From: Allacma fusca
Taxonomy: Eukaryota; Arthropoda; Collembola; Symphypleona; Sminthuridae
DNA: 64,000 bases
Direction: 5' to 3'
Assembly (NCBI GenBank): GCA_947179485.1
Contig: OX359245.1
Coordinates: 41,837,067-41,901,066 of the forward strand
A program made the position numbers and the translations under genes. The notes beneath the pieces were generated by a model. That model worked only from the letters and a program-made list of their open reading frames with translations. It did not search any database and had not been told where the DNA came from. This document shows, piece after piece, positions 1 through 64,000 of this stretch (positions are counted from its first letter, which is position 1; every line of letters begins with the position of its first letter).

Positions 1-283
1 AGATATGTACTTTGAGATAAATTTGAGAGTAATTTCAATATATATTTCGTATTTCAAATACGGTATTTTCATTTCATATTTTCTCTTTCTGTTGGAAGCA
101 AAGCATTTTATTTTGTGTCTTGCCCAAATGACTCCGGATATTTGTATTTTATTTTGTATCTTAAGTAAGTTACACCTGGTATTTGTATTTTATATTTTAT
201 ATCTGTATTTTAACTTTTCTGAAAGTGCATTAATTTGTATTTTGTATTTCAATAGTAAATTTCATGTATTTTCCACACCTCTG
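1..283. mobile_element. right end of a TATTT-rich hAT-type element (partial)
   Basis: Dense array of GTATTTTGTATTT-like words ending in ATGTATTTTCCACACCTCTG. The reverse complement of this end starts CAGAGGTGTGGAAAATACAT and closely resembles the termini of the complete element at 30243-30939. The left half lies outside the window, so the target duplication cannot be tested; the candidate 8 bp is CTAGTAGT at 284-291. Confidence 0.6.
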
Positions 284-2785
284 CTAGTAGTTGTCTAAAA
301 ACCTTCATTTACACAGATCCATTCACAATTTTAACTGGCTCTCCCAATACTCTTGTTGGGCTATGCCATATTAAAGTGTAACGACTATTAATTCATTTAT
401 TTAAATATCATGCTGCCAGCTACTTTGGGTGGTTTACAGTATTGTCAACATTCGATGATAACATGCAAAAGTGTGAGTACTGGAAACATTTGAAACTAAA
501 TCACGGAATTTAAATTGCAAGCTTAAGAATGTAAGACGAACCTGGTGGTTATAATATAATTAATTGCCATTAATTAAAATATGCGACTGTTTTAATTTAT
601 ATCAGTAATATCCATACTGTATTTTAAGAGCTGAACGGAACGCAATAGGCCGCTTATAAGTATATAGTCTTACCATAATAACAATGAAACCTACAATCAG
701 AAGAACAAATTTAATACCGAATGCTATTTCAGTCATTGAGATTGCTACCTGTAATAATTACCAATCCAGAGGCTAAAGATTGACCCGTATGTTTTTTTCC
801 AGCGCCCAAATGTTTCTTGTGGTTTCGTTCCAAGCATTGGTAAGTGACCCAAGATAGGTAATGGTAGTGGACCTGCCATGCAAATTGTATATAATTATCT
901 TGACCATTACGTATTTATTGAGAACCTTCATGGTTTAAGACATGATGTGTTTTCCAGTAATATAACTGGAATTAAGGAAAAATACGATCGTTTCTATAGG
1001 AACGTGAATTACAAATTATTACCTGGTGGGAGTCTGGAATTCTGCGTGTTCCAATATTTCCAACCCAGGACACACGCCAGAAACACAACCAACAGATACA
1101 GAAACATTGCAGCTAGGTAGAGTTGAGTATGAAAATCCAAATGAACTTGTTGAGTATTAAACGCAAAAGCTGAAATAAAAGATATTTACTTCATTTCTTC
1201 CTTTTATTTCGCGTTTATAAATGGCATCCAAGTATTAAAAAAATAGAATAAACTTCTGGGAATTTACAGTGTCGCAGGTTTGAAACAGGTTTAAAACAGG
1301 TTATTTCTCTTCACATGAATCCAAATTTACACTCAAATTGTTTGGCTATACAAACAAATTTACACGTGACATTTCACACCATCATATTTATTCAGTGAGC
1401 ATCCTATATTGTGCCTTCCAACTAGATAGAACATTCCCTTAATACTAGCACCATTAAATTTTCTCAAGATCATGTAATTACAGTACAAAGATTAGAAATT
1501 ACAAGGTTGAAGAAAGAATTAAACAGAACCTATGCGACCAGAAATAGTAGCCGTAGTGTCAAAACAGGTTATTTGACTCGAAATGGTCCTAAATATATCA
1601 CTCCAATTGTTTGTAGATACAAAAGAAATTATACAGAAAATCCAGATTTTTCACCATTTTCAACCATGATTTGCACCATGCACGTCCAAAAGTATAGCTA
1701 AATTATGCAACTTACGTGAGAGCGTAATTTACGTCAGAAGTAATTCCCTACAGGTTTTAATTAAGTTACATAATGTTTGGCAGGAAATGCTTAAATTTCT
1801 AAAACTTGAGTCTTAACCTGAGAGTTATTTCATACAGTTGTGAGACGTTTGTAAGTCATAGTAAATACCTGTAAGTCTATACATGGAAGATTATTTATTC
1901 ATTGGTACGACACCCTGGCATCTCCATATATTGGTAGGTATTTTCTCATCCTTGTTTCAGTACATATACATATAACGCGTCATAAGGCTGCAACACACTC
2001 AGATTGTAGCAGAATTCACCTCCCTAGTTGACACTGTTAGCCTTAGATGAATACAGTTCGTAGAAGTATAATAAAATTTATGTTACAAATATTTTATTAT
2101 CTGTCATAACACAGGCGAATAACAATAATCAAAATGAATGTTAATGTGAACTTGGGTTGTTATAGAATTATTTCTTTGGCTTGGAAGTAATTAAACTAAC
2201 CTTGGAATAATTCAACCGCTTCTAATTTGAGCAAAAAATTCCACAAAATATGAATGAAAAAATGAATAAGCCATTCCGCTCTAATAACTGTAATGTTCAT
2301 TATAATCACGAGTATTGTCTCAACGAGTGTAGTTACTGTACAATTTTGTGATTTTTTGATTTGTATAAAAATGTTCCCACTTGAACAAAATAAATTACAG
2401 AAAAATAGGTCAAATATTTGAAGGGCTTCTTGTAAGGTTATGAAGGATGAAATTTTACAACACTTTAGCCTTGGAAGGTTTAAAGGAAGGATATTTCATT
2501 TGGACATCTCTGTTTCATTATGCATTGCATCTAGATCATTTTATTTAATACATTTTGTTCAATTTAGCAAAAATAAAATCATGTTGCATGCATTTTCCAA
2601 CTAATCAAAAATGCAAAGATCATTTTGCCTATTCACTGCATACTGTATATCAGTTAACTTGTAATGTACTTTTAGCGGTACAATTATATTCAAATGTTTC
2701 ACTTTCAGCTTTATCAGCTGCAAGTAACTTATGAACTATTTGCAAGTTCAACTTCGGTTATTTGCATAATCTAATTGACACATTT
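284..2785. other. intergenic, no confident gene
   Basis: AT-rich sequence without a convincing gene. The only coding-like stretch is at about 878-1165 (listed separately). A short perfect exon-like block at about 814-851 has a pyrimidine tract plus AG before it and GTAAGT after it, but has no partner exon that I can identify. Confidence 0.5.
878..1165 (+). pseudogene. possible 3' exon or gene fragment, unrecognised
   Basis: Two overlapping open frames. The first, starting ATG at 878, reads like protein (YLDHYVFIENLHGL..., then KEKYDRFYRNVNYK) up to about 1025. The second, open from about 1008, ends in ...GRVEYENPNELVEY and stops at about 1160. An AAATAAAA signal follows within 15 bp. The pattern fits either a terminal exon or a coding fragment with a frame change near 1025. 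I do not recognise the family, no splice acceptor is compelling, and chance remains possible. Confidence 0.25.
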
Positions 2786-3160
2786 CAGGGTTCCGATTTT
2801 TGTAGATCTCCCTTGAAGATCAATTCTGAATTTCCCTGCTAAGTCAAATGTCCCTGCTAGGAGGTCCTCAATGATTTCAAAAATCCATGCTGAAAAAATA
2901 GGTCAACGGTTCAAAATCCCTGTTGGCAAAAATAATTTCAATACACGACGTCAAATAAGGTCAACCAAACTAAAAATATCTTTTTACCTAACAAATTTCC
3001 CTGAAACACGCCAACAAATTTGAAAATACCTGCCAAAAAAAGATCATAATCAAAATCCCTGTTTGTAAAAAAGAATCCCTTCCTCTTGTGATTTTCCCTG
3101 CCAGAAATATTTTTTCCCAGGGAAGAATCTTCCCGTCTTCCCATAAAAATCCGACCCCCG
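2786..3160. mobile_element. hAT-type MITE with TCCCTG-motif array
   Basis: Termini CAGGGTTCCGATTTTT and its imperfect inverse (reverse complement of the right end is CGGGGGTCGGATTTTT). Flanked by near-identical 8-bp duplications ACACATTT (2778-2785) and ACACTTTT (3161-3168). The interior is a degenerate run of AATTTCCCTGCYA and AAAATCCCTGTT words. A similar fragment occurs at about 12230-12300. No coding capacity. Confidence 0.6.
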
Positions 3161-3289
3161 ACACTTTTTAGCAAGTACCAGTTATGTCATTGCTGGTACT
3201 TGCATAATCAATTACAATTATTGTAATTTCAAGTTCGGTTATTCCTGATCTTTGCACCAACAGAAACACTAGTCCTAGGCTTTGGGTAA

Positions 3290-3445
3290 GAGTATAAATA
3301 ATTTTATTAATCCACCCCTGATGTAGACCATTTTGCTTTCAGGTTGGCTTCCACGCAGTTCATTTGTCTTGGAGGTGAGAAATCCTTTAGACCATTTTTA
3401 CTTTTTATCCAAAACACCTCTGGACCATGTTGCCTCTTCACCGAT
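3290..3445. repeat. fragments of a small MITE and of the foldback element
   Basis: 3290-3320 ends TTATTAATCCACCCCTG, the terminus of the short MITE seen whole at 15781-15955. 3322-3445 carries diverged copies of GACCATTTTGC and a GTTGCCTCTTCACCGATG end that match the foldback element at 6708-7075. Both are truncated and old. Confidence 0.5.
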
Positions 3446-3550
3446 GAATTCTGCTGAGTGGTTGGTTTTAATAATAATGAACGACTACATTTCTATATAA
3501 CATTATTTTCAAATCATCTAACTCCTCTTGAATCATATTTGAGTGCAAAC

Positions 3551-5039
3551 CAGGGACGGGAATTCGAATTCGAATCGGAATTAGAATCGGAATTATATTC
3601 AAAAAATTCGGGTATCCGAATCGATATTGGAATCGGAAAAAAAATCACAAAGGTATTTGTATCCAAAATTGGATTCGAATAAAAACAAGGGTATTCGAAT
3701 CGGTAATCGAATATTTTTTTATGAATTCCGATTCCAATAATGTGTCGATTTCATTATGTTTTATACTGCGACGTGAGAGAAAATGTTCATAGGAAACATT
3801 TTTTGAAAGCCGCAAACATGCAGTATGAAATTATTATAAAATCCAAAGGTCAAGTAACGAACGTTTGGCAAACGAAAAGTGTATCCTTGTTAATGGGCAG
3901 TGAGATGAAGTCCGTTTTGCAAACATTCCTGCAAACAGGGTGAGATAGCCTCCTGGTGTCTGTCTTACAGGACTATTAAGTGAATCAAGTTTCTCATTAC
4001 TTAAATTTTGCTCTCATCATGTAGAATGAAGTAGTTAGGCAGGTTAGCAGATTGTTCCAAATTTTTTTTAGAAATGTTATGGGATCACTCTAGAACTTCC
4101 TTCGGGTTTCCGAAATCCCGAAGTTCCGTGTTCGGAAACGGAACGGAACAATTTCGGAACATTCTTTTTGCTCCGTCATTGATTCGGGACAAAACCGAAA
4201 CATGAGCCTTTGTACCGGCGATATTGGGACCGGGACAGTTCACAGCATCGGTACGAAAACTGTCACATATAATTTATGTCATCGGAAAGCGGAATTGTTC
4301 TGTTCCGTTCCGATCCCGGTACAGTTTATGAAGTGCCCTTACTATTTTGGAATGCAGAAAGGAATTATTTATAATCAAATATTAAACTTGAACATAATTA
4401 TTGTTGTAGAAATATTACAGGTAATGTAATTGCATTTCATGTACATGTAATAAACAATCCCGGGATGCTTCGGAACGGAACGGGTTCGGAACAGAAAAAC
4501 CAGCAAAATCCGGAACGGAACACAAACGTGACGGAAACAAAAATTTACTTCTTTGTTCCGAACGATTCCATTTAAAATATTCCGATGACCCGACAGTCGG
4601 AACGGAACCGGGAAATTTTTATTTGCAGGTTTCGGAACGGTACCGAATTTTCTACGGAACAAAAATGTTGAACACATTGGAAGCTCTAGATCACTCCTTG
4701 CTTTTCCGGTTACTCAAATTTCAGTTGACCGTGTGTTTTCTGTGTTTAAATTTATATTAAATGATTTACGTGGTAATTTAGCTTAGAAATGCTTAATGCG
4801 CTATGTGTCGCTAATGTTTTTCCGATTAAATTGTTCTTTTGAATAAATTCCCATTTTTTGTTAGAATATCCGAAAAGTATTTGAATCGGAATCCAAATTC
4901 CAGAAGTATTCAAATTTATTAGAATCCGTATTGGAATTCAAATTTTTAAGTATTAAAAATAGTAAATAAAATAGAAATCGAAATTAGAAAGTATTCGAAT
5001 CAGAGTTTAAATCCGTATGTTTCCGATATCCCGTCCCTG
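3551..5039 (+). mobile_element. decayed hAT transposon with transposase C-terminal remnant
   Basis: Ends CAGGGACGGGAATTCG and its inverse (GATATCCCGTCCCTG). A perfect 8-bp target duplication GTGCAAAC lies at 3543-3550 and 5040-5047. Subterminal arrays repeat TCGAATTCGAATCGG-like words at both ends. About 4716-4830 translates as VDRVFSVFKFILNDLRGNL, then in a shifted frame LEMLNALCVAN. This matches the hAT C-terminal dimerisation region (SVERxFS...LR..L). The frame change and the loss of the rest of the transposase make it non-autonomous. It lies just outside the left arm of the AKR inverted repeat and hosts the nested element 4091-4688. Confidence 0.8.
4091..4688. mobile_element. nested hAT-like MITE with CGGAAC array
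   Basis: Inserted in the 3551-5039 element, with an exact 8-bp target duplication GATCACTC at 4083-4090 and 4689-4696. Termini are TAGAACTTCC and the inverse of TAGAGCTTCC. Both arms are rich in CGGAACGGAAC words. The ends resemble the CTAGAGC-type ends of the element at 45008-45744 rather than the CAG-type ends common elsewhere in the window. No coding capacity. Confidence 0.75.
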
Positions 5040-8060: not shown

Positions 8061-8234
8061 TTTCGAGGAGCTTGGAAACAAACGAAATCTATAACGAGGA
8101 CACATATGTTGATGTATATGACCTGAGTATACTCGGACGCAAACATCTACAGTTTTTTATTTTCAAAAATTCCTTTAATTTTATTCAAATTATTACAAAA
8201 GAAAATGCTATGTTTATTTTGTTGCGCGTCTGCT

Positions 8235-8240
8235 AATAAA
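8235..8240 (+). promoter_or_regulatory. possible polyadenylation signal of AKR copy 1
   Basis: AATAAA 175 bp after the stop, in GTCTGCTAATAAACC. The inverted copy reads GTCTGCTAACC at the aligned place, so the hexamer is absent there because of a four-base difference. The two copies may therefore use different 3' ends. Confidence 0.4.
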
Positions 8241-9427: not shown

Positions 9428-10396
9428 TAGGGTATGTCGATTGAAAATGCCCTGCAGTATTTTCCCGCCCAGCTGAAAATGCCAAAAATGCCGGCCCACA
9501 TGCCCAATTTCAGCAGCAATCGCAGCTTTTGAAAATGCCCTAATTTTGAGCATTTTGGGCAGGGCAAGTTGGGCATTTTGGGTATTTTCACGGAACAAAA
9601 ATTCAATCACTAGTTTAGATTCAAAATACCCAAATGTATTGGAGCGCAGCGAAGGAAAACTATGTGAGAGATGAGCGTTTGACTCATCTCTCCGTAGCTT
9701 GTTCTCATTCAAGAGTTAGCTTTATTATCTCGGACCTAATTCTTCATCTACAAGTTCACTCTGTTTATATATCATTCCAATAATGCAGAGTAAGCATAAT
9801 CTTACTTACTTGGTTACACAATATCAGATGTCTCATATCAAATACTATTCGATTATCATGCACATTTTACAGGATGATTTCATCTGAGTGTTACAATAGA
9901 ATTATGTCGTAACAGGTTATTCGCTGGTTCTTTAATTATTTTAATTTCCGAAACATTGACAATTCAATTTAATTTCAATGACATCGGATGTTATAATTTA
10001 TCTCTTCTTTGAAAATCAATTTCAATCATAGCATGATTGATATACAGAATAAAAATATATTTGGCCCTAATTACTGGAAAAATGGCTCGAGTAAAAACCA
10101 ATGTAATTCCTGGACACCGGTCTCCAAATATTGTTTGTTTAGTATATCTGTGTAGACAAAAAATTACTTTATGGGTTCTAATTTGAACAGAAAGCATGTT
10201 TCTGATCGCTCGTCATCAATATAAATACGTGTGTAGGGGTATGTACATATTTTATTCCACTATTCTGCCCAAAATGCCCAATTGTCCTCGAATGAAAATG
10301 CCCATAATGCCCTTACCCAATATGCCCTATTGTGCCGCCCTCGCCCTGAAATGAAACTGCCCAAAATGCCGGGCATTTTCAAATCGACATACCCTA
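9428..10396. mobile_element. hAT-like MITE with GGGCATTTT array (copy 1)
   Basis: Termini TAGGGTATGTCGATTGAAAA and inverse, with an exact 8-bp target duplication GTAGTAAT at 9420-9427 and 10397-10404. Both arms are filled with GGGCATTTT and AAAATGCCC words. About 9720-9916 is an unrelated LTR-like fragment in reverse orientation. A second member lies at 23693-24698. Confidence 0.8.
9720..9916 (-). repeat. LTR-like repeat fragment
   Basis: Reads TGTTACGACATAAT... on the minus strand. It shares the AGATTATGCTTACTCTGCAT block and a following TATATA-type word with 39163-39400 (+) and 58325-58610 (+). TG start, TATA word and dispersed copies suggest a solo LTR of an old LTR element. Class and ends are uncertain. 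Confidence 0.35.
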
Positions 10397-15780: not shown

Positions 15781-15955
15781 CAGGGGTGGATTTACGGGGT
15801 GGCCCACCCTGGCCCGACCAGGTTAAAAATTTAGGGCCAGGGTAAAATAAATTTTGTCTAAGGCCCTCAGATTACATACATGCACATCCAAAGGACCACA
15901 AATCTATTTTGGGGGTTAGGGCCAGGGTGTAAATTATTTTATTAATCCACCCCTG
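15781..15955. mobile_element. short hAT-type MITE, CAGGGGTGGATT family
   Basis: Termini CAGGGGTGGATT and exact inverse. Flanking 8-mers TTTGCAAT (15773-15780) and ATTGCAAT (15956-15963) differ at one base. The interior has TTAGGGCCAGGG words. Other members: 38755-38881 (exact duplication) and worn copies in each F-box unit (about 21979-22139, 29375-29526, 43588-43754, 51907-52052, 56113-56161). Confidence 0.8.
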
Positions 15956-22590: not shown

Positions 22591-23203
22591 CAAAGGTGTC
22601 CACCTAACCTATTCATAGGCCTATATATAGTATAAAAATAGGCAGGATGCAAAATCCAAGTAATTATAGGTAGTAAAATAGGGTGCAGTAATTACCGCTA
22701 AAATTAATCCTATATTATATGTAGGAGCTGCAAGAGTTCACTTTTTATTTAGGAACAAGGTAGGCAGTTTGCGAAGGTAAAAATAGGCATATTTAATAAT
22801 CTATTGACAAATTTGTCAAGCAATTATTTGATTTAACCTTAAAATAAATCTCAAAAATATTCTTCAAATACGTGAAATTTTAGTAGTTCGATTTTGTTCA
22901 TGTGTTACGATTGCACGTACTTACATAGATGATTTTTAGTTGAAAAAATAAGCCTTTGTAGGCTAAAAATAGGTGTTTATAGGCTAAAAAATAGGCCTTT
23001 ATGGGTTAAAATATAGGCCTTTATAGGCTAAAATATAGGCCTTTATAAGCTAAAATATAGGCAGAAACATTACAGGAGCATATATGTAGGCAAATAGGTA
23101 GGCAATTTATTTTTGATAAATAATGTAGGTTAATATGTAGGGAAGGCAATGCTGCAAAAAATATGTAGTATTTTAGATAGGCTGAACCTTTTGGACACCT
23201 TTG
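22591..23203. mobile_element. hAT-type MITE, CAAAGGTGTCCA family (copy 1)
   Basis: Termini CAAAGGTGTCCA and exact inverse; exact 8-bp target duplication CTAGCGAT at 22583-22590 and 23204-23211. The interior has many TATAGGCCTTTATAGGCTAAA words. Copy 2 at 56162-56743 is closely similar over its length. No coding capacity. Confidence 0.88.
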
Positions 23204-23692: not shown

Positions 23693-24698
23693 TAGGGAAT
23701 GTCGATTGAAAATGCCCTCGTATATATGCCCGCCAAGCTGAATATGCCCAAAATGCCCGCCAACGTGCCATATTTTTGGGCACGTTGGCACATTGGGAAA
23801 ATGCCCTAAATTGGGCATTTTCGACAGGGCATATTCGGCATTTTGGGCATTTTCAGTAGGGAATATTTATTATTTTTTGTAGACAAAACTCAGCAATATA
23901 GTCAAGTCAAAAAAGCCACTATTCACTATTAAAATGAAATATTCTAAAAAGGCCTACATGTCAATTTTGCTCAAATATATTTTATTTCAAAGTATACTTC
24001 ATGTGTATCATACAATCGCCTTATATTGAATTGCAGAATGCAATACTGTTGCATTTTGTATAACGTTAATCAGAATGCTCTAGTTCTTCTCGCGTGTACG
24101 GTTCTTCAATGATAAATGCGTCCTCAAAAAAATCCTCCCCATCAGAACTTTTATTTCTGTAACTTTCAACCTCTGCAGCCGTTGCTCAGCCTTCGGCTGA
24201 AATAATATCGGCATAAATAAAATTTCTCATATCAACTTTTTCTAACAAGTGCTTCGAGGTTGCAGAGTTTATTGCATTCCAAAATGTGAGTTATGTTTGA
24301 CTACTAAATTAAAAATAATACGGGAACAATTTCAATGTTGAACTGTGAAACCACCCGTCAATTAGCAACAATGCAATGGTTAGAAGTTTCAAAACTTTTA
24401 CAATTGTCTACTGACCAGATTTATTTACCTGTATGTTAAAACGGCGAGTAATCGTTTTTAGTTATAACAATGTGTGCTGGGCAGTTTAACGTCTGGAAAA
24501 GGTAATCGGCCGGAAAATTGGAGTTGAATATGCCCAAAATGCCAAATATGCCCAGGAATGAAAATGCCCAAAATGCCCGTGCCGAATGTGCCCAAAATCT
24601 ACGTATTTGCCCAAAGTTGAAAATGCCCAAAATGCCAGGGCATTTTGGGCAGGCATGATGCCCAATATGCCATGGCATTTTCAAATCGACAATCCCTA
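23693..24698. mobile_element. hAT-like MITE with GGGCATTTT array (copy 2)
   Basis: Termini TAGGGAATGTCGATTGAAAA and imperfect inverse; exact 8-bp target duplication GTAATAAT at 23685-23692 and 24699-24706. Arms hold GGGCATTTT/AAAATGCCC words; the middle is different from the 9428-10396 member. Unit 1 has the uninterrupted site near 17110 (TTTAAGTAACAATTTAAA), so the insertion followed duplication of the units. Confidence 0.85.
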
Positions 24699-29149: not shown

Positions 29150-30242
29150 TTATTCAAAAAGTCCCCTTAAATTTGCTCTCCACGTGCAGTATAGGCTAAT
29201 AGTCGGATAGAATACTGTTCCGTCAATTTTTTGATCCACTTCACATTTCATTTTGACATCATCTTTGAAAGTTCTGTTTTGAGTGGATTCCTTGGAAGCT
29301 GTTGTTTCTCGATGTCTTACAATGCCCCAATTACTGTACCTACAGAGGTTATTTGGATTAAAAATGAAACATGCAGCGGTGGATTAATCAAATAATTTTT
29401 ACCGTGACCCTAAACCTCAAAACAAATTCGTCTTTCATTCAATATAAAGGACTTCTTTAAAAAAATTTGTTTTGGCAGTAATATATTTTACCTGGTGGGG
29501 CCAGGTTCCCCGTAAATCCGCCCCCTGAAAATATGTAATACTCCGATAAGAAGAATATTCCACAGAACACGGGTAAAATCTGTTGGACAAATATCTGAGT
29601 ACAGTGGAATAACTTTAGACGAATTCCAACAAGTTTCTTTAAGGAATTCCTTAAACAACCAGGAAATTAAAAATATCACTAGATGAAGTTAAGAATCACA
29701 TCATCCATTGTTACAAACGGATTGCCGCTGTAGCTATATCCAAAAAGTATGTAAGAATATCAAAAGGAAAGAAAAGAATTTCATGTCCACAGCATGTACG
29801 ATCCAACTGTAGGTGTACATAAGTTTTGGCCCGAACTGGCCGAACGTGCAGCACTAAACCATAGATGGGCGTTTTTCTCCCCCTCTGCCTCCTCGTGCGA
29901 GGGATGTAACATAGACTGCTCGCACTCTCCCTCGTCATCAATCGAGCGACACGTTACGGGTTGTCCTCGTCCTCGCCCTCGTGAGGGGCTACTTTTAAAA
30001 TACACCCCTCTTCCTCGCCCTCGACATTCCCCCCAGTTTTGAACGCAAGGAACTTTTGGATAACTTAGAAAGTTTATAAATTTACTACAACCTAGCGTTT
30101 AAAACAAATTTTTAAAAAATTGTTGTTGAAATAAACTACTGTATTCAAAATATCGCCCATTATTGGTGCAGAGAGATAGAAATTTATTTATTTCACTGAC
30201 ACTTCAACAGTGCTTGCCTAAAGACACAGTATATTCAGTTCT

Positions 30243-30939
30243 CAGAGCTGTCCAAAATACATGGTATTTTAAATACATGTATTTCAAATACGTATTTCAA
30301 ATACGTGTTTCAAATACATTTTTGTGTTTTGTATTTTGTATTTTCGTGGCTAGGTATGTGTTTTGTATTTTGTAGTTTGTATTTTGTCTTACGATGCAAT
30401 GTATTTTGTATTTTGTAGTTTGTATTTTGTCTTGCGATGCAATGTATTTTGTATTTTGTAGTTTGTATTTTGTCTTACTTAAGTAAAGTAAGCAATGTAT
30501 TTTGTAGTTTGTATTTTGTTCGCTTTATAAGCTACTTGTGTTTTTTGTTGGCGCACTTTCTTTGGGTTTGAAAATTCCGTTTATGCCAAAAACCAATCAC
30601 ATCAATGAAGTAAAACGAAATGCAATCGTTTTAACATCACATAAAACTAAATTCCATATTTTGGATGTTCTACGTTTCAAGTATGTATTTTGTAGTTTGT
30701 ATTTTCGTCGCCTGAAGAATGTATTTAGTATTTTGTAGTTTGTATTTTCTACGTTTTGAGTATGTATTTTGTATTTTGTAGTTTGTATTTTCGACGCCTG
30801 AAGAATAAATTTTGTATTTTGTAGTTTGTATTTTCGACGCCGGAAGAATGTATTTTGTATTTTGTAGTTTGTATTTTCGACGCCGGCAGAATGTATTTCG
30901 TAGTTTGTATTTGGTGAGCATGTATTTTGGACAGCTCTG
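30243..30939. mobile_element. hAT-type MITE with GTATTTTGTAGTTT minisatellite
   Basis: Termini CAGAGCTGTCCAAAATACAT and exact inverse; exact 8-bp target duplication TCAGTTCT at 30235-30242 and 30940-30947. Most of the body is tandem GTATTTTGTAGTTTGTATTTT words; on the right these form units of about 60 bp that include a CGACGCCGGAAGAATG spacer. Nested in 29860-32066. Confidence 0.88.
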
Positions 30940-31117
30940 TCAGTTCTAATATTGTAACTACAATTAATTCACATTTTATAGCATTAACTTTATATATTTA
31001 TATTATACAAGTGATTATGAGCTATCTTATAAGATCCTCTAATAACACATATTATTTTGTACATTATATTATTACATAGGTATTTGGGTACAGGTACATG
31101 TTAGGTTTCGTGGTTGA

Positions 31118-32528: not shown

Positions 32529-33736
32529 CAGACATGGAAAACGTTATCGGATAACGTTATTGAAAAACGTTATTAACCGAAAATTTGACCTAACGATTTT
32601 TGATAACGAAAACGGAAACCGATACATAAAAATTTAGTTAAACGAAAACAAACGATAAACTGGTTTAATTAAAAACGGAAACGATAACAGAAACGGAAAA
32701 AATACGGTTCTTTTCCGTTTTCAAGCAACTGTAAAATTGAGCGGTATGCTATCTCCTGGTCGCCAACTGGCACCAGCGGGACGGCACATTACATGAATGC
32801 ATAGTTGCAGTTTATTGTATACCCGTACATTGGAGTAAACCTCATTGTTTTTTCCCTTTTACACAATGTACTGCTTCAATTGTTAGTTTCCTAAACCTTA
32901 TCGTACCTTATTATTAGCACCATTTAAACATATTTTCATTTATGCTTATTGTTAGTCCCATAAAAGCATTGAGTCTGACAAGAGCAACACTAAATTTAGT
33001 GCATATATATAGTCGTTAATGATGTAATTTACAAAAATGGGCAGAGAAAAGATCAGTACAGTTTTTCAAAATTTTGAATTCAGAAGTAAGGATCAAACAC
33101 CACCATATTTAGTGGAAGTTTGTGATTCAGTAGTTTGGGTAAAACCAAAATTTTATAACGAATTTATAGAAACACAGATATTGTTCAAAATGCAGTGTAT
33201 TGTTGGAAGCTTCTTCCAGTTATGAAAATATATTGCGGGAAAAAATCAAATTGGTTTTAAATTGGATCCATTTGATTCGTGGACTAGCAATGGTCCAGCT
33301 TCGTTGAAAGATGTAGCTAGAGTAATTATTTGCCTCCGATATACTCATTCTAGTGTCGAACGTCAGTTCTCAGTCCTGGCATTTATACCCTCTGAAAGAC
33401 GAAGCAGAACGAAGGACGAAGTCCTGAACGCAGTTTTGTTCTTTCGAACCAATGGATTTTGAATACAAAGCGAAAAGTGGTTTTATGTGATTTTTCTTAG
33501 TACGTATTAGGTGTTACAAAACTATAGGAAAAACGTTTATACAGCTAAATATCGTTGAAGCTAAATGAGCTCTGAATACCGTTATTAACCGTTTAACGGA
33601 ATTTAATTTGAGCAAAAACCGTTTTAACCAAAAACTGTATTCGGAAAAACCGAAAACAAAAACAAAAACCGAAAACAAATTCCCAAAAACGTTTGACTAG
33701 CAAACGAAAACCATATTTTTTGGTTTTCCAAGTCTG
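32529..33736 (+). mobile_element. internally deleted hAT transposon with dimerisation-domain remnant
   Basis: Termini CAGACATGGAAAACG and inverse of CAGACTTGGAAAACC; exact 8-bp target duplication GTTTTTAG at 32521-32528 and 33737-33744. AACGTTAT and CCGTTTTAAC words fill the ends. Two short open stretches remain: 33037-33225 (starts MGREKISTVFQNFEF, position of a BED-type N-terminus) and 33262-33462, which contains HSSVERQFSVLAF and DEVLNAVLFFRTN, a clear hAT C-terminal dimerisation motif. The catalytic middle is missing. Family member without coding remnant: 59140-59961. Confidence 0.85.
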
Positions 33737-34453
33737 GTTTTTAGTACACTCTCACTGTTGTATTTGTAACTATCTATTTTGTAGTTCATTGCATGCGCGA
33801 ATCCTTCCAAGTAGCAGAGGGCTACTTTACATACTGCCTTCCTTCGCCTTCCGTTTTCTGATAATAATATGAAGGCTTTCCTCAGCCTTCCCGAATTAAT
33901 TCAGCCATCCCGCCTTCCCTTCCCAACTCTCTGGAAAATTTATATTCCGCCTTCAATGCAGTGATGCTCACACTACTCTATTTTTCCGTAGTGGTAGTGG
34001 AATAGTGGTAAAGTGTAGAGTATTTCTAATAGGTACATATATTAAGTAGTTATTGGTAGAGTAGCACCGTACTGAGATAGTTTCTGCTAGGAGTAGTGGT
34101 AGGTAGAGGTAGCGGGTTGCTGTACTTATTAAAATAGCACATTGTAGTTCCGTCAAATTATTGCAGTGTCAATACAGTAGAGGTAGAGGTATAGGCGTCA
34201 GTATTTCATACATAAGTAGTGCTAACGCAGTAACCATTACTTCCTCAAGTGAAAGAGTGAAACACACCAGTTATCACTAAAAATCCTTATAAATTAACCG
34301 CCTAGGCATGGAGTTTGTGGCTATTAAAATTTCGCGCTCTACTATTAAGATCAGCGCGCAAGATTTAGGCATACAGTAAGTCTCCACGACTGGGCTTGAT
34401 TTGTAAACAGTTAAGCCTCTACACTCACACTACCACCTCTCCAAGTAATTGTT

Positions 34454-34479
34454 CCTGTGAAGCACAGGGCTGCTACTAG
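34454..34479 (+). mobile_element. Helitron-like 3' end
   Basis: Hairpin CCTGTG-AAG-CACAGG at 34454-34468, 7 nt spacer, then CTAG (34476-34479) followed by T. This is the hallmark 3' end of Helitrons (hairpin then CTRR, insertion before T). A close relative lies inverted at 38475-38501. The 5' end (TC) could not be fixed. Confidence 0.5.
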
Positions 34480-34612
34480 TACTATAATTTGGCCGTGCCA
34501 TAAGAGAGTTTTTTAAATCTTCGCTCTCTCTTCTAAGCGCGCTTTATAGATTCGCAAGTACACACTACAAAATTGCTAAACGGCTTATGCATATGAAATA
34601 TATATGTAGTTT

Positions 34613-34644
34613 CCATTGGCGAAGCCGATGGCTGTTTACGCTAG
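34613..34644 (+). mobile_element. second Helitron-like 3' end
   Basis: Hairpin CCATTGGC-GAA-GCCGATGG at 34613-34631 (one G-T pair), 9 nt spacer, CTAG at 34641-34644 followed by T. The body may be the 165 bp between this and the preceding terminus, which starts just after its CTAG; if so it is a short non-autonomous copy. Confidence 0.5.
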
Positions 34645-35820
34645 TGTAATATTAAATGCTATGTCTAAGCGTAAGCGCGCGTAAAATATTTTCGAAGTAA
34701 TCATATTGGCGCCCCCGGATGCTATATGTTCTGACTCAGTCTAGTCTACCGTCTACCAGCATCAGCATCACCGGAATTTATGAGAATTTCACCCATCGAA
34801 ATTCATTCGTAAAAATAAACTGATAGTATAGTACCTTTGCTGTGTTCCACGCATTAGGTTGTTAGGTATCGTTTGGAATTTTCGCTTATTAGTGTCAGTT
34901 TAGAAATTTATTTCCATAGTTGGAAGCTAGAAGCTATCGATATGGACAAAAGGTGTAAGAAAGTGTCAACGGACTGTCCGGTGCCAAATATAACAGTTGA
35001 ACTCAGCTCAAACCAAATGGTATTGCTGAACAAACCCAAAAACAAACGGACAATGAAGGACATTCTCGAAATTCAGGGTATTTATGGACGATCCAAAGAA
35101 AGTTTGATCAGCCGAAGCCGGGAATTAAAGAGAAAAATTCAGAAAACCAATTTGAAAGGTAGATTACGAATTCTCGCTGTCTAATAAATTTTTGAATTTA
35201 ATATACGTCCAGTCTTATGGGAAAAATTCAACAAGCCTCCCTTTCTCTAATAAATAGTACTAGTGCTTCCATAACCTGTTTTAGAGTAGCACCGGACAGA
35301 CCGGTGGTAATTGGCTGTTTTGACATATGTAGGGCCTCGGTTTGTTAGCAAATGCTGGTAATGAAATAATTTCTGAGGCATTTTGTAATCTGAAATGGAT
35401 GGAGAGGTACTACATTATTAGTGTTAATTTTGTATGGTTCTAACGTTTTATTAAAAACTACTTTTAAAATTCCAACATCTTGCGTTAGCCAAGTGTAGAG
35501 TAGTGGGTGGCAAATATAATTTTTTTAGAGTAGTGTTTCGGTAGTGGTTAGGTAGGCGCCAACAAAAGTACTGGTAGTGGTAGTGGGTAGTGTTTTGCGT
35601 AAATATAAATGTGTTGTAATTAGAGGTAGTACACTGTCACATCTGAATTTTGTAGTAGTAACGGCAGGTGTAACTGGCGCATTTCTACATAGCGTATTTT
35701 AGAGTAGTGGGAATTCGAATGAGCATCACTGCTTCAATGAAGCCTTCATTGCAGGCTAGCCTTCGAAGGCTGGACATGTCTGGTTTAATATCAACATTCC
35801 ATTGTTATTAAATTTTGCTG

Positions 35821-38754: not shown

Positions 38755-38881
38755 CAGGGGTGGATTAATAAAATAATTTTTGCCCTGGCCTTAACCCTCA
38801 AAATAGATTTGTGGGCCTTAGTCAAAATTTCTTTTATCCTGGCCGGGCCAGGGTGGGGCCCCCCCCGTAAATCCACCCCTG
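38755..38881. mobile_element. short hAT-type MITE, CAGGGGTGGATT family
   Basis: Termini CAGGGGTGGATT and exact inverse; exact 8-bp target duplication AATTTAAC at 38747-38754 and 38882-38889. At 127 bp it is the shortest complete element in the window. Confidence 0.88.
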
Positions 38882-45935: not shown

Positions 45936-46512
45936 CAGTTATGAACAAGTGGATCGCCTATCCTTCAGCCTTCCCTATAAAATATTTGAAAAACAGCCCT
46001 ACCTACTGGGCTACAGGGATGCCCATTCCCTATAGCCCAAAACTAGGCAGATACATCGCCTACCTTTTCCTTGCCTAGTTTTGAAGTGCAGTGGATTTGT
46101 GCTACATAAGTTCTATTTATTTATCAACGGGAGCACAAAATACTTCTATTGTTCCTTATTCTGTATTTGCCAACAACCCCAAAACTAGATTGCAATAAAA
46201 CGTTTAATGCGGTCCAATCGTACGTTTAGCCAGGGTATGCATTGATGCATGCATGCTCTTTCTCATTGCCTTAAAAATCACCGATAGGTACCCTTCAACA
46301 TAATATTCTGACCTGATTGGCAAAACTTGACACCCTTCCTTTTCCTTACCTATATAATTGGTTTTATATTTGACTTCCTATCCCCTAGCCTAGTATTTAT
46401 AAAATGCCTACCCGTTTTTGCCAACCTCGCCTACATTGTTTCAGCAATTTCCAGCCCGCCTATACTATCGCCTATTTATAGGGCCTATATATAGGCGAGG
46501 TGCCCATCACTG
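45936..46512. mobile_element. hAT-type MITE with GCCTATATAGG words
   Basis: Ends CAGTTATGAACA and inverse of CAGTGATGGGCA; exact 8-bp target duplication GTTCCACA at 45928-45935 and 46513-46520. The homologous site near 36310 (AAAGTTTCAGAAGATT) is uninterrupted. The interior has GCCTACC, CCTTTTCC and TATAGGC words, like 58899-60418. Confidence 0.8.
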
Positions 46513-56161: not shown

Positions 56162-56743
56162 CAAAGGTGTCCACCTATCCTATTTATAGGCCTATATATA
56201 GGATAAAAATAGTCAGGCTGCAAAATGCTAGTAATTATAGGTAGTAAAATAGGGTGCAGTAATTACCGCTAAAATTAATCCTATATTATATGTAGGAGCT
56301 GCAAGAGTTCACTTTTTATTTAGGAACAAGGTAGGCAGTTTGCGAAGGTAAAAATAGGCATATTTAATATTCTATTGACAAATTTGTCAAGCAATTATTT
56401 GATTTAACCTTAAAATAAATATTAAAAATACTCTTGTGACATTTTAGTAGTTCGATTTTTTTCATGTGTACGATTGCACGTACATACATAGCTGATTTTT
56501 AGTTCAAAAAATAAGCCTTTCTAGGCTAAAAATAGGTGTTTATAGGCTAAAAATAGGCCTTTATAGGCTAAAAAATAGGCCTTTATAGGCTAATATATAG
56601 GTAGAAACATTACAGTAGTATATATGTAGGCAAATAGGTAGGCAATTTATTTTTGATAAATAATATAGGTTAATATGTAGGGAAGGCAAAGCTGCAAAAA
56701 ATATGTAGTATTTTAGGTAGGCTGAACCTTTTGGACACCTTTG
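56162..56743. mobile_element. hAT-type MITE, CAAAGGTGTCCA family (copy 2)
   Basis: Termini CAAAGGTGTCCA and exact inverse. Very similar to 22591-23203, with several indels. Inserted in a worn short MITE of unit 5. Flanks (CAAAATAG and TTCCTAAT) do not match and the rest of the host MITE is missing on the right, so a deletion or rearrangement followed insertion. Confidence 0.8.
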
Positions 56744-56757: not shown

Positions 56758-57818
56758 CAGAGATGCGCAACCTTCGAAGGCTAGCCTTCCAAGAAGGCTT
56801 CCTTGAAGGCGGAAAGCAATGATGGGAAAATCCCTACTACTTACGTCCATATCCCTGGTAACACTCACAATCAGTCACAAATCCTTACGTCCCTCCAATC
56901 CGTCCTGAACACCAGACGATCTAGTCTCAGTCACGGTCAGTCGGCGCTAACGTCGTTAATGAACGTCCCCGTCCCGTCCGTATCCCTATCCTATCCCTAT
57001 CCCTATCCCTCTCTCCATCTCACGTGACAATCATTCCTGCCATTGTTATATGCATTGCTACATATGTATGGTATACAGCACATGTAAATGAACGAGATAG
57101 TAAAAAGTGAGAGTGACGGTGACTGGATTAGATCGAAACGTCCCAAGTATTCGTCCCTATTATTATTGTATTTTATGGCCAACGTCTCGATCCCGTCTCA
57201 GTCCCTCTCCTCTCTTAATTTTTAGAACCGAATCCGTCTCAAAGTCCCTATCCCGTCCCGATTTTTGCCGTCCGTCCTGAGATACGGTATCCCCAGCGAA
57301 CATAATTGGCGGAAAGGTAACTTTCTTAACGTTGTAGAAGGAATGGAAGGATGGCGATACTTTTTCATGAAGGCTGAAGGAAGCCTTCACAAAAACTAGC
57401 AATGAAGGAGTGTGAAGGAAGGGTTCCTAAATGTTAGCCCTCTAAGGCCGTGAAGGCTTCCAGGTACACGAAATATCTATAACGTAAAAGCATAGCATAT
57501 ATGCAACGACGTTTTGCTGCTAGCGCAACAATACAGCCAATTCGTGAACTCACAACTGACATTGTGTGCCGCTATCTTCACTGCACTAAATCCTGCTGGT
57601 GCAAAACGTTTTTAAGCGGGTTGCAGTTTAAAATTGAAGGAAGGCTATTTTTTAGATGAAGGCTGAAGGCAAAAATGAGTGTATGTATTTTGGAAGGAAG
57701 GCTGAAGGAAGGCTGATTTTTTAGAGGGCTTCATTCCAGGACATTTTGAAGGGGAAATTTTTACTGAATTTTCGCCTTCGAAGGCTTGAAGGAAGGCTAT
57801 TTCCTTTGCGCATCTCTG
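56758..57818. mobile_element. hAT-type MITE, CAGAGATGCGCAA family, with nested element
   Basis: Termini CAGAGATGCGCAA and inverse; exact 8-bp target duplication ATACTAAT at 56750-56757 and 57819-57826. CCTTCGAAGG and GAAGGAAGGCT words line both ends. Host to 56817-57308. A second copy starts at 63452 in the opposite orientation. Confidence 0.88.
56817..57308. mobile_element. nested MITE, CAATGATGGG family
   Basis: Exact 8-bp target duplication GCGGAAAG at 56809-56816 and 57309-57316; short ends CAATGATGGG and inverse of CAATTATGTT. The copy of the host element at the right window edge lacks it (uninterrupted GGCGGAAAGGTAAC on the minus strand near 63955). CCCTATCC and CGTCCCGTCC words lie inside. 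Confidence 0.8.
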
Positions 57819-58645: not shown

Positions 58646-59032
58646 TTACTTATCTGATCCTGTACTTCCCACTGCTACTGAGTTCCCCTCAAATCATAAA
58701 TTCGCCCAAGTCTCAATTAATATTCTTAACACTTAATTAATAACGAACTTCTTCCCCTCGTAGATCGCCTTTGAAGGAAGTCTTATTCTAGACTTTTACA
58801 AAACTGGAACGTGTGAACATCCGTTTCACATTCATTTTTTACTGATGATTTGCTGACAAGGACTTTAGGAATCTATTCATAGCTTGTTCCTTCGTCATCA
58901 AAGATGGGCAAATGAAGTGCCTAAGCCTAAAGCCTGCCTATTTTCTTTCGAAAAATACGGCCACCCTATATAGGCGGATAGGATGTTTTAACGAAAAGAA
59001 GAGCTTTAATACCAAGGGTCAAGTACTCTAAC
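58646..59032. repeat. 387-bp segment duplicated across the gap (copy 1)
   Basis: Matches 63065-63451 with no indel and about five to six substitutions. Ends exactly where the transposon at 63452 begins in the other copy. Confidence 0.85.
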
Positions 59033-60418
59033 TGCCTGCCTATTAGCCTATATCTGTCCTAGTGTACATTGCTTGCCTGCCTATATTTGCTGTATAGCTT
59101 CTGACAGCCTATATAGGCGACATAATTGTGTGTTTTAGACAGGGATGGATAACGTTTTTCATAACGTTATTGAATAACGTTATTATCGGAAAAAAAGAGA
59201 AAACGGTTTACAGTAACGAAAAAGAAACGCAAAATATGTAATAACGTTAAACTAAAACTGACCCAAAGGTTGGATTTGTAAAACCAAAAACGTAAACCAT
59301 AACCAAAAATATAAACGTTATTTTCCGTTTTTAAAAATCATATGTATTACCATCTTGTAAGCTCCAATAAAGCTTAAGGCTGATCTCAAATGAGACACGT
59401 AAACGTTTCTGTTTCGTTTCACTTGAACTAATTCTTTCAGCACGTGCTATCTTTATGACATATATAGAAACTAGAAACGCATAGAAACTACAGAAAGTCA
59501 TTCCTTAGCAATTTACATTAGGTAATTATTGACTCATAAGGAAGTAATTTTGTCTATAAGCAAGTACATTTTGTCTAACAGAAGAATGAGATTAACAGAT
59601 GAACTTCTGAAGGTCATTCTATTTCTTCGAGTAAATGATTCTGAGTGGCATTTATGTATTTGCATGCAGTTCCTATTATTGTTTTTTCACTAAATAAGCT
59701 ATAAAATTATATTTCTGTGATTAAAATTAGCAAATATTATTTTTATAACCGTTTTTAACCGTTTAACGGTATGTCATGGAAACTGTAACCGTTATTTTGG
59801 AAAACCGTTTTTAACCGTTTAACAGAATAACACGGAAGCCGTAACCGTTTTTACCAATAACCCTATCTTCAGATAACGTAAACTATAACGTTAACGTAAT
59901 TAATTCTGACAGAAACGTTAATGTATTAACCGAAACCATATTTTTCGGTTTTCCATCGCTGGTTTTAGATAGTGCAAGCCGTATGGAATGATCATATACA
60001 AAAATTGGAGTATCAATGTAGGGGTTTTATTAATGATGTAGTAAACAACTAGACTACATAGTATATACATGTGCATATACTCTGGTAATTACTGGTTTTA
60101 AGTAATTCCCGCCTCATTGTCAGTCCGTCTCTGCTAACGTTTTCCCAAAGATCTTGTAATCCTGTCCTAAACTAATTCGTGCTTTGAGAACGTTCCGGTC
60201 ACCACTAATGCCTAGCCTTTACTTGACGAACTTGTAGCCTGCCGGAATAGCCCAGTCCCTTGTTCAGAAATATCTGAATATCCTAGATTTTCTCTAAGCC
60301 TATATTGTAGTGGTGACTGTCCAGCCTTGAACCTCGCCTAGATTTATATTCCAATTTGCAGCATCCTAGAGCCTTAGCCTATTATAGGGCCTAGAATCTA
60401 GGCAGGCGCCAATGTTTC
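58899..60418. mobile_element. hAT-type element with GCCTATATAGG words, carrying a nested element
   Basis: Exact 8-bp target duplication TTCGTCAT at 58891-58898 and 60419-60426. Ends CAAAGATGGGC and inverse of GAAACATTGGC (imperfect). Both ends hold GCCTATATTAGCC-like words. About 0.7 kb without the nested 59140-59961. Its left part recurs at 63318-63451. Confidence 0.75.
59140..59961. mobile_element. hAT-type MITE with AACGTTAT array
   Basis: Termini CAGGGATGGATAACG and inverse of CAGCGATGGAAAACC; exact 8-bp target duplication GTTTTAGA at 59132-59139 and 59962-59969. AACGTTAT and CCGTTTTTAACCG words fill the ends. Same family as 32529-33736, but no transposase motif is visible. Confidence 0.85.
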
Positions 60419-60426
60419 TTCGTCAT

Positions 60427-60543: not shown

Positions 60544-60599
60544 ATGTAACGTCATATAGGCAACAATGTTTACAACAGTATTCGTAAAAGCAGGGAATG

Positions 60600-62510: not shown

Positions 62511-62525
62511 ATTTGGTGCCTGAAA

Positions 62526-62864
62526 ATCATTCTAATCGCCCGTAAATATTCTAGAACTTTTGGTAACTGAAAAGTGAAATCAATTTATTTCCTCACAACT
62601 ATTCTATTATACTTACATTTATTTATATATTTTCCACGGGTGCCGCCACTATCACACTCTACTCTACCAGCGGTTTTGGATAGAATAGACGAGCTCTACT
62701 GCTATTATGATTAGCTGACTTGCTATCAATTATTTTATTCAATTATGTGTTAAAGTTATTGGCGCTACTCTAACTCCACTCTTCTCTCCAAATTTGTGTT
62801 AACTCTGCTATTGCACATATTCAAAAGGATTGAGGTAATTTTGAGACCACTCAAACACGTTTTA
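62526..62864. other. end of tandem repeat and flank, no gene
   Basis: The first about 45 bp continue the 148-bp repeat. The rest, with TCTACTCTACC and CTACTCTAACTCCACTC words, gives no exon and runs into the gap. Confidence 0.5.
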
Positions 62865-63064
62865 NNNNNNNNNNNNNNNNNNNNNNNNNNNNNNNNNNNN
62901 NNNNNNNNNNNNNNNNNNNNNNNNNNNNNNNNNNNNNNNNNNNNNNNNNNNNNNNNNNNNNNNNNNNNNNNNNNNNNNNNNNNNNNNNNNNNNNNNNNNN
63001 NNNNNNNNNNNNNNNNNNNNNNNNNNNNNNNNNNNNNNNNNNNNNNNNNNNNNNNNNNNNNNNN
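62865..63064. other. assembly gap
   Basis: Exactly 200 N, so probably a placeholder of arbitrary length. Confidence 0.99.
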
Positions 63065-63451
63065 TTACTTATCTGATCCTGTACTTCCCACTGCTACTGA
63101 GTTCCCCTCAAATCATAAATTCACCCAAGTCTCAATTAATATTCTTAACACTTAATTAATAACGAACTTCTTCCCCTCGTAGATCGCCTTTGAAGAAAGT
63201 CTTATTCTAGACTTTTACAAAACTGGAACGTGTGAACATCCGTTTCACATTCATTTTTTACTGATGATTTGCTGACAAGGACTTTAGGAATCTATTCATA
63301 GCTTGTTCCTTCGTCATCAAAGATGGGCAAATGAAGTGCCTAAGCCTAAAGCCTGCCTATTTTCTTTCGAAAAATACGGCCATCCTATATAGGTGGATAG
63401 GATGTTTTAACGAAAAGAAGAGCTTTAATACCAAGGGTCAAGTACTTTAAC
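63065..63451. repeat. 387-bp segment duplicated across the gap (copy 2)
   Basis: Same length as 58646-59032 and about 98.5 percent identical by eye. Interrupted at 63452 by a transposon that copy 1 lacks. Confidence 0.85.
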
Positions 63452-64000
63452 CAGAGATGCGCAAAGGAAATAGCCTTCCTTCAAGCCTTCGAAGGCGAAA
63501 ATTCAGTAAAAATTTCCCCTTCAACATGTCCTGGAATGAAGCCCTCTAAAAAATCAGCCTTCCTTCAGCCTTCCTTCCAAAATACATACACTCATTTTTG
63601 ACTTCAGCCTTCATCTAAAAAATAGCCTTCCTTCAATTTTAAACTGCAACCCGCTTAAAAACGTTTTGCACCAGCAGGATTTAGTTCAGTGAAGATAGCG
63701 GCACACAATGTCAGTTGTGAGTTCACGAATTGGCTGTATTGTTGCGCTAGCAGCAAAACGTGGTTGCATATATGCTATGCTTTTACGTTATAGATATTTC
63801 GTGTACCTGGAAGCCTTCACGGCCTTAGAGGGTTAACATTTAGGAACCCTTCCTTCACACTCCTTCATTGCTAGTTTTTGTGAAGGCTTCCTGCAGCCTT
63901 CATGAAAAAGTACCGATATCCTTCCATTCCTTCTACAACGTTAAGAAAGTTACCTTTCCGCCTTCAAGGAAGCCTTCTTGGAAGGCTAGCCTTCGAAGGT
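63452..64000. mobile_element. hAT-type MITE, CAGAGATGCGCAA family, partial at window edge
   Basis: Starts CAGAGATGCGCAAAGG after ACTTTAAC (63444-63451). Inverse of 56758-57818 and very similar to it, but without the nested 492-bp insert. The other end and the second target duplication lie beyond the window. Confidence 0.82.

Follow-up and report, generated by a model that had tools for sequence, protein, structure and literature searches.

That hAT transposases use subterminal sites is a known principle. According to the accessible portions of the reports cited here, the site of the maize Ac transposase is AAACGG and the Ac tips are C/TAGGGATGAAA (PMC3260210), and a short motif, CGATTCAT, to which the transposase binds, recurs at both ends of Herves, a hAT element of Anopheles gambiae (PMC3143072). 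Hermes, a hAT element of the house fly, prefers nTnnnnAn as its target; two of its BED domains bind cooperatively to a quasi-palindrome in the left end (LE11-27), while the right end binds none (PMC10368747). For CGGBP-type domains, motifs have been measured for four hAT proteins; each motif fits the subterminal regions of the element concerned, and the specificities differ (PMC8097297). In the window (the whole stretch of 64,000 nucleotides analysed here) the variety of such arrays is unusual. Our main reading, to which we assign a probability of about 0.75, is that the window holds non-autonomous hAT elements of some twelve families, with arrays that would be transposase sites and a one-sided palindrome that would mark the nucleation end. 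The elements are best read as internally decayed or deleted and the genome as eukaryotic by content. Weak F-box/LRR-like tandem frames and pieces of an aldo-keto reductase were also seen in the window, suggestive of a eukaryote only; neither a tRNA nor an Rfam match reaching the gathering score was found in it.

A scan for CAG..CTG ends (TIR of at least 10/14, length 60–4500) returned eight pairs with exact target duplications of 8 bp and none at 5, 6, 7, 9 or 10 bp, as well as 38, 7 and 5 pairs at 2–4 bp, where the chance level is high. When any tip was allowed, 19 exact 8-bp pairs were obtained, of which 12 were accepted and seven discarded as chance-like, as were almost all rows with one or two mismatches. 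Addition of E10 (TIR 9/14) gave 13 elements in 11 families, and F12 raised the total to 14 elements in 12 families with exact 8-bp duplications (Table 1), this last family having a weak TIR (8/12) and coming from a noisy relaxed scan (42, 17, 19, 1 and 0 pairs at 6–10 bp), 24 of whose 38 rows were discarded as chance-like. The 8-bp duplications reported in the earlier note were thus borne out, its count of at least fifteen families was not, and the CAG ends that it described hold for the eight pairs above but not for all families (F2, TAGGG; F4, CAAAG; F5, CATA; F12, CAAAG/GAAAC). The terminal sequence CAGNGATGNNCAA has six exact sites in the window and 20 with at most one mismatch, related copies counted, against a mean of 2.7 and a maximum of 10 for 41 column-permuted patterns. 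Two sites of CAGAGATG, at 37615 and 47530, were rejected as families, neither a partner end nor a duplication being found. Net element lengths are 127–1773 bp, six families having copies longer than 1 kb (E1, E2b, E5, E8a, E9 and E11a), and 'non-autonomous hAT element' is a safer name than MITE.

Table 1. Elements and transposase remnants in the window. The end bearing the palindrome was taken as the left end in assigning strand (our own convention).
Feature	Position	Strand	Target duplication	Array word	Palindrome	Remarks
E1 (F1)	3551..5039	+	GTGCAAAC	ATTCGAA, CGATTC	ATTCGAATTCGAAT, centre 18.5 bp from left tip	
hAT C-terminal dimerisation-like fragment in E1	4589..4783	+				PF05699, 11.5 bits, below cut-off 21.4, E 0.27
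E2a (F2)	9428..10396	-	GTAGTAAT	AAATGCC	right end, AAAATGCCCGGCATTTT	tips TAGGG
E3a (F3)	15781..15955	+	TTTGCAAT/ATTGCAAT, one mismatch	array not clear	left end, GGGTGGCCCACCC	
E4a (F4)	22591..23203	+	CTAGCGAT	TATAGGC	left end, ATAGGCCTAT	tips CAAAGGTGTCCA
E2b (F2)	23693..24698	-	GTAATAAT	AAATGCC	right end, ATGCCATGGCAT	empty site 17075-17243
E5 (F5)	29860..32066	-	CACTAAAC	CCCTCG	right end, CCCTCACGAGGG, centre 18.5	E6 and E7 nested inside
E6 (F6), inside E5	30243..30939	+	TCAGTTCT	AAATACA, 31 copies	left end, AAAATACATGGTATTTT	
E7 (F7), inside E5	31118..31516	+	GTGGTTGA	AACCGG	left end, imperfect, AAAAACCGGCTTTT, centre 18.5	score equals that of right end
E11c (F11)	32165..35782	-	none		right end, AGCCTTCGAAGGCT, centre 18.5	diverged; split by nested E8a and E9
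E8a (F8), inside E11c	32529..33736	+	GTTTTTAG	AACGTTA, AAACGG	left end, AACGTTATCGGATAACGTT, score 9.0 (right end 6.5)	
Decayed hAT transposase C-terminal dimerisation domain in E8a	33226..33459	+				PF05699, 22.5 bits, cut-off 21.4, E 9.6e-5
E9 (F9), inside E11c	33959..35731	.	CTTCAATG	CCACTAC, 8/8 on same strand	right end, weak, other than its word	
E3b (F3)	38755..38881	-	AATTTAAC		scores equal at both ends	inverted relative to E3a
E10 (F10)	45936..46512	-	GTTCCACA	TAGGCGA, GCCTATA	right end, GCCTATATATAGGC	empty sites 12273-12496 (- strand, junction displayed) and 36282-36443 (junction not displayed)
E4b (F4)	56162..56743	+	none			second F4 copy, 90.7% identical
E11a (F11)	56758..57818	+	ATACTAAT	GAAGGCT	left end, CCTTCGAAGG, centre 18.5, and a longer one, centre 25.5	
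E12 (F12)	58899..60418	-	TTCGTCAT	TAGGC	right end, GCCTAGATTCTAGGC	tips CAAAGATGGGCA/GAAACATTGGCG (8/12); E8b nested inside
E8b (F8), inside E12	59140..59961	+	GTTTTAGA	AACGTTA (11); AAACGG, 5 in outer 200+200 bp		
E11b (F11)	63452..64000	-				about 98% identical to E11a; truncated by window end

The proposed hAT origin of the elements is supported by 8-bp duplications leaning to nTnnnnAn (T at position 2 in 11 of 14, P 0.0004; A at position 7 in nine, P 0.013; both in seven), by short TIRs with C/TA..G tips and by the Dimer_Tnp_hAT remnant in E8a, the only hAT dimerisation region above the Pfam cut-off. Departures from the C/TA..G form are found in the right tip of F12 (GAAAC) and, at the fifth base, in at least one tip of F5, F8, F10 and F11. 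A scan of 79 ORF pieces (44 of the 51 located within elements plus 35 others, from 280 ORFs of at least 55 aa in all) gave no other transposase-domain match at E ≤ 0.05, no BED domain, no recognisable RNase H-like catalytic region and no intact transposase, and no word could therefore be linked to a protein; a missing BED domain is expected of decayed copies and is uninformative on autonomous partners. A comparison of the E8a fragment with solved structures gave no convincing match (best E 0.37), and its peptide pattern matched eight stretches in viral contigs, none of which was confirmed. The end patterns of F11 were absent from the searched genome contigs and viral contigs, and those of F2 from the searched viral contigs.

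The words that make up the arrays lie mostly within the outer 200–300 bp of the elements, and the word-by-family matrix is nearly diagonal. Words picked in one end recurred 78 times in the other against 1.92 expected (10 families, both directions; F12 and F3, the latter with 1 and 1 in the other end, left out), compared with 10 against 4.0 for the same words in element interiors; recurrence was 50 against 1.24 when F6 and F7 were set aside because their halves are direct repeats. E1 was weak in this respect, with a single CGATTC in the opposite end and the right-end word absent from the left end. Array cosines were 0.66–0.95 between copies in five multi-copy families, contradicting the possibility, raised in the earlier note as a refutation, that arrays are not shared among copies of a family, and ≤ 0.16 between families in 63 of 66 pairs. 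That each family has an array of its own holds in the main, by the matrix and the cross-end recurrence, but not throughout: F4, F10 and F12, with differing tips, have a TAGGC word in common, and F3 has no clear array. Three words singled out previously, all of them palindromes or nearly so, proved rare (TCGAATTCG and AAACCGGTTTTT present once, CCCTCGTGAGGG twice), the arrays consisting instead of shorter half-sites. Of the 17 copies, 12 reached P ≤ 0.02 when raw hexamer counts were tested by shuffling (failing: E1, E3a, E3b, E8a and E8b); P ≤ 0.01 was seen in three of 68 control windows. This test was seemingly too blunt for A+T-rich or palindromic words, and background-based and cross-end tests were then run. 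With 143 overlapping control windows as the background, the 95% point was exceeded by 12 of the 17 copies, but not by E3a, E3b, E4b, E7 and E8a. In three diverged families, words held their position between copies in 100 of 193 cases, compared with 234 of 1967 for other hexamers; this figure is biased by word choice, and the F4 copies showed no difference (30/40 and 504/680).

The coexistence of similar tips with different arrays could reflect one recent radiation of a single hAT lineage, in which tips were kept while array recognition diverged. The combination in F6 and F11 of matching tips (11 of 12 bases) with unrelated arrays (cosine 0.01) and the occurrence of GATGGGCA or GTCCA in the tips of several families are in its favour. 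We nevertheless regard a single recent radiation as rather unlikely: Ac has similar tips (PMC3260210), the CAGNGATGNNCA tip form is not followed by F1, F2, F3, F7 and F8, the transposase remnants of E1 and E8a match at only 11 of 30 residues, and the similarities of tips and of arrays showed no significant correlation (Mantel r 0.17, P 0.13, 66 family pairs).

New here is a tendency of the word to be arranged as a palindrome adjoining the TIR at one end. Over the 12 families, the palindrome score of the stronger end averaged 6.33 against a null of 3.50, a value reached in none of 200,000 draws, and that of the weaker end 2.92 against 2.49 (3290 of 200,000 draws), so that a one-sided palindrome of the Hermes kind is present at group level. 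Deeper in the same arrays, palindromes were not above the null (offsets 80 and 110; P ~0.055 at offset 50). The pattern is clear in eight of the 12 families (F1, F2, F4, F5, F6, F10, F11 and F12) and not in F3 (scores of 6 and 4 in one copy, equal ends in the other), F7 (two ends tie), F8 (weaker end 6.5) and F9 (palindrome not built from its word). With dinucleotide shuffles of single ends, the stronger end reached P ≤ 0.05 in seven of 16 copies. In all but one of the 12 families, further copies of the palindrome's hexamers are present in the rest of the terminal array (235 against 16.6 in total, overlapping hexamers counted). In the titles and abstract openings of the literature searched, most subscription papers being out of reach, no one-sided palindromes across many hAT families were encountered.

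Alternatively, the arrays could be by-products of decay and regrowth, produced by slippage or by gap repair copying end segments, and have no binding role. Tandem periods of 43 bp in E6, 21–22 bp in E4 and 13 bp in E8, the direct-repeat halves of E6 and E7, the alignment of the two E2b arms and the presence of arrays in two elements with other duplications (44118–44752, 9 bp; 25296–25853, TAA) are consistent with such an origin. In the remaining tested families, however, the arms have no blastn match beyond short stretches and yet have the word in common; this, together with the confinement of the arrays to the outer 200–300 bp, the palindromes adjoining the TIR but absent deeper in the same arrays, and the exact match of one word to the Ac site, makes a by-product origin improbable. 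Still less probable are sites of host factors for transcription or silencing: palindromic words do generally resemble dimeric transcription-factor sites, and function is unreadable from sequence, but a different word in most families, placed near the tips, is easier to reconcile with a private partner than with a host factor common to them all.

The arrays are most likely transposase binding sites, as had been suggested previously, a view supported by their end-confinement, their sharing among copies, the Hermes-like palindromes beside the TIR and the one word that equals the Ac site. In this interpretation, the word of each family would most likely be the DNA site recognised, through a BED zinc finger, by the hAT transposase that mobilised the family. 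Many copies in the outer 200–300 bp of both ends would make capture by a multimeric transposase likelier, and the palindromic word pair adjoining the TIR would serve as a nucleation site at which two BED domains bind together, so that the two ends would be distinguishable as 'left' and 'right', as in Hermes, with the other end then recruited through the terminal repeat. Arrays would differ because each tracks the transposase of its family; tip and array would change separately because they are read by different parts of that protein. Possible, though at somewhat less than even odds, is a general rule of hAT ends, in which one nucleation end carries head-to-head private BED half-sites about 15–30 bp from the tip, and tip (catalytic and dimerisation domains) and array (BED) are separable modules; near-identical tips would then be kept apart by their array words, and unlike tips could share a word. 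If binding-site arrays of this kind are confirmed, the private words would be readouts of BED-domain specificity, and a single genome would offer a natural series of protein–DNA recognition pairs for the study of BED site choice and of how related transposons avoid cross-mobilisation. Through the one-sided palindrome, the nucleation model known from Hermes would also become open to purely computational tests in many families.

Among the described systems, F8 has features in common with Ac/Ds: AAACGG, found de novo in the left end of E8a, is present in both outer 200 bp of its copies (four and two in E8a, two and three in E8b), CAGGGATG occurs in one tip, and one copy retains a transposase fragment, a feature also on record for Ds-like elements in the accessible text (PMC3260210). 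Unlike Ac/Ds, F8 has the tips CAGGGATGGATA, CAGCGATGGAAA, CAGACATGGAAA or CAGACTTGGAAA, and its remnant is short. CGATTC, found in the left end of E1, is contained in the Herves site CGATTCAT as given in the available part of that report (PMC3143072), but six bases only are common and the top-scoring heptamer of F1 is ATTCGAA, so that the match may be a coincidence. Whereas the CGGBP-type hAT proteins have measured motifs (PMC8097297), only the DNA side is visible here. As in Hermes (PMC10368747, accessible portions), the elements have 8-bp target duplications with nTnnnnAn and a short motif recurring at either end, and, as in its left end, a motif pair forms a quasi-palindrome adjoining the TIR, centred at 18.5–20 in five of the 12 families (F1, F5, F6, F7 and, for its inner palindrome, F11) compared with base 19 of Hermes by our own reckoning from LE11-27. 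In contrast to Hermes with its AAGT/AAGC motifs, most families here have a word of their own, usually a longer one, and their best-scoring palindromes are centred between 15.5 and 29.5.

The window was scanned for terminal inverted repeats (TIRs) with exact flanking duplications, over a set of duplication lengths. Among CAG..CTG ends with a TIR match of at least 10/14, eight exact pairs were found at 8 bp and none at 5, 6, 7, 9 or 10 bp; together with 14 exact 8-bp duplications in the catalogue, this bears out the 8-bp target duplications (TSDs) claimed in the earlier note. The duplication of copy E3a has one mismatch, and E4b and E11c are full-length copies without a TSD. The main list contained 19 exact-TSD rows, of which 12 were accepted and seven dropped. 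The catalogued copies sorted into twelve families, F1-F12, best read as non-autonomous hAT elements. The weakest, F12 (TIR 8/12), was taken in on its exact duplication TTCGTCAT, and the relaxed scan yielding it was noisy, with pair counts of 17, 19 and 1 at 7, 8 and 9 bp. Empty sites were found for E2b and E10 (see table), and several insertions are nested: E6 and E7 inside E5, E8a and E9 inside E11c, and E8b inside E12.

Features of the window (positions in the window; empty sites lie in related stretches)
Feature	Position	Description
E1	3551-5039	
E5	29860-32066	
E7	31118-31516	resembles a tandem dimer: bases 36-206 and 229-399 are direct repeats, 81% identical
E8a	32529-33736	
E10	45936-46512	
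E11c	32165-35782	
E12	58899-60418	
Empty site, E2b	17075-17243	junction displayed
Empty site, E10	12273-12496	junction displayed
Empty site, E10	36282-36443	junction displayed on right side only
F6-like end relic	10520-10620	CAGAGCTGTACAAAATAAAGG; not in catalogue
Duplicate	58701-59032 and 63120-63451	98.5% identical; E11b adjoins the edge of the second copy exactly, giving half of an empty site
Element, presumably MULE-like	44118-44752	tips GGGTCTCC; 9-bp duplication CTAAGCGTA; CTGAAC arrays, long inverted arms
Element, PIF/Harbinger by our guess	25296-25853	tips GGCGGCGTCCAT; TAA on both sides; CGTTAC/CGTAAC words at both ends
Fold-back	6707-7076	~32-bp units around GCAAAATGGACTA; inverted arms
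Inverted duplication	~5600-8400 and 12790-15119	aldo-keto reductase pieces (PF00248) in both arms
Tandem family (- strand)	19431-54978	~450-aa reading frames at 19434, 27439, 41144, 49422, 53629; three scanned, with sub-threshold F-box or LRR matches only, in two
Tandem repeat	61576-62100	148 bp, 3.6 copies
Run of N	62865-63064	200 bases

For each copy, the top heptamer of the outer 300 + 300 bp was determined relative to the remainder of the window. Against 143 overlapping control windows, it passed the 95% point in 12/17 copies (not in E3a, E3b, E4b, E7 and E8a), some of the top-scoring control windows being parts of the elements at 44118-44752 and 25296-25853, and a raw-count shuffle test gave P ≤ 0.02 in 12/17 copies. 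We take the first of these two elements to be MULE-like from its duplication length; both carry arrays, and in this genome end arrays are therefore not limited to hAT elements. So that no word was tested on the bases from which it had been chosen, a hexamer was picked from bases 16-200 of one end and its copies were counted at the opposite end, which yielded 78 occurrences vs 1.92 expected (ten families, both directions, which are not independent), or 50 vs 1.24 when F6 and F7 were left out because the halves of each are direct repeats of each other. One of the 20 tests, E1 from right to left, showed no recurrence. In element interiors these words occurred 10 times vs 4.0 expected, with six of the ten from E11a, and in 15 copies the chosen words, which were picked from ends, lay within 300 bp of a tip, bar one in E8b and three in E11a.

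The claim that each family has a private word holds in that counts of ten family words formed a nearly diagonal matrix (off-diagonal counts 0 to 3), but privacy is incomplete, as the end 5-mer profiles of F4, F10 and F12 have between-family cosines of 0.65-0.72; the remaining 63 of 66 family pairs reach at most 0.16, and same-family copies 0.66-0.95 (five families). In three diverged families (F4 left out), word hexamers were kept in place in 100/193 cases vs 234/1967 for other hexamers, a count inflated by the choice of words for their frequency in these same copies; the less diverged F4 showed no difference (30/40 vs 504/680).

Inspection of the ends suggested that a palindrome of the family's own word often adjoins the TIR at one end. 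When the best palindrome in bases 9-36 was scored at both ends of the 12 families against GC-matched random pairs, the mean of the stronger (higher-scoring) end was 6.33 vs a null of 3.50 (reached in 0/200,000 draws) and that of the weaker end 2.92 vs 2.49 (3290/200,000). Swapping in the other copy where one exists gave 5.88 and 2.71, the stronger end again with 0/200,000. The first test comprised 11 families; F12, added later with its sequence already seen before scoring, has scores of 7.0 vs 2.0. Further into these arrays, the score of the stronger end was 4.09 at offset 50 (11029/200,000) and at background at offsets 80 (3.59) and 110 (3.55); dense arrays alone therefore do not produce the TIR-adjacent palindrome. 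In 11/12 families its hexamers turn up at other places in the terminal array (in total 235 vs 16.6, overlapping hexamers counted), the exception being F9, whose palindrome is not made of the F9 word. One-sidedness is clear in eight families (F1, F2, F4, F5, F6, F10, F11 and F12) and not clear in F7 (ends tie at 4.0), F9 (palindrome not of its own word), F8 (weaker end reaches 6.5) and F3 (6 and 4 in E3a, a tie in E3b). Dinucleotide shuffling gave stronger-end P values of 0.003-0.083 in 14/16 copies (≤0.05 in seven of these), and the tied ends failed (E7, P 0.445 and 0.266; E3b, P 0.452 and 0.312). Best-scoring palindromes are centred at 15.5 (F9), 18.5 (F1, F5, F7), 20 (F6), 21 (F8), 23-23.5 (F3, F10, F12), 25.5 (F11), 26 (F2) and 29.5 (F4); F11 has a second palindrome at 18.5, and in E11c this one scores highest.

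In some family pairs, tip and array similarity do not go together: F6 and F11 share 11/12 tip bases at an array cosine of 0.01, and F4 and F10 share 7/12 at a cosine of 0.72. Overall, the Mantel correlation of tip and array similarity was r = 0.17 (P 0.13, 66 pairs). E8a contains a clear hAT transposase remnant (22.5 bits, above cut-off) and E1 a weak fragment (11.5 bits, below cut-off), which match in 11/30 residues; in each of these two cases, the only ones, the reading direction leads away from the end with the palindrome. That all families stem from a single radiation of one hAT lineage, as the earlier note proposed, we consider less likely than not. The elements belong to an ordinary kind, and their interest lies in the variety within 64 kb, the separation of tips from arrays and the one-sided palindrome in most families.

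The proposal that the arrays are binding sites has clear precedents, on the strength of which we read them as putative sites for the BED domain (the DNA-binding zinc finger of the transposase) and the TIR-adjacent palindrome as a putative nucleation pair. According to excerpts of PMC10368747, the BED domain of Hermes recognises a short motif that recurs in both ends; at the left end the first two copies form a quasi-palindrome in LE11-27, on which two BED domains bind cooperatively, no BED domain is bound at the right end, and Tol2 has a perfect palindrome directly after its TIR. The Hermes quasi-palindrome is centred at 19, as reckoned here from LE11-27, and those of the window families at 15.5-29.5. 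Excerpts of other studies describe hAT DNA-binding domains with distinct specificities, each matching its own element's subterminal regions (PMC8097297), Ac transposase binding to AAACGG copies within the terminal 200 bp (PMC3260210) and Herves binding to CGATTCAT (PMC3143072). AAACGG is also the word found in the left end of E8a, whereas other words are found in its right end and in E8b, and the first six bases of CGATTCAT are the word found in the left end of E1.
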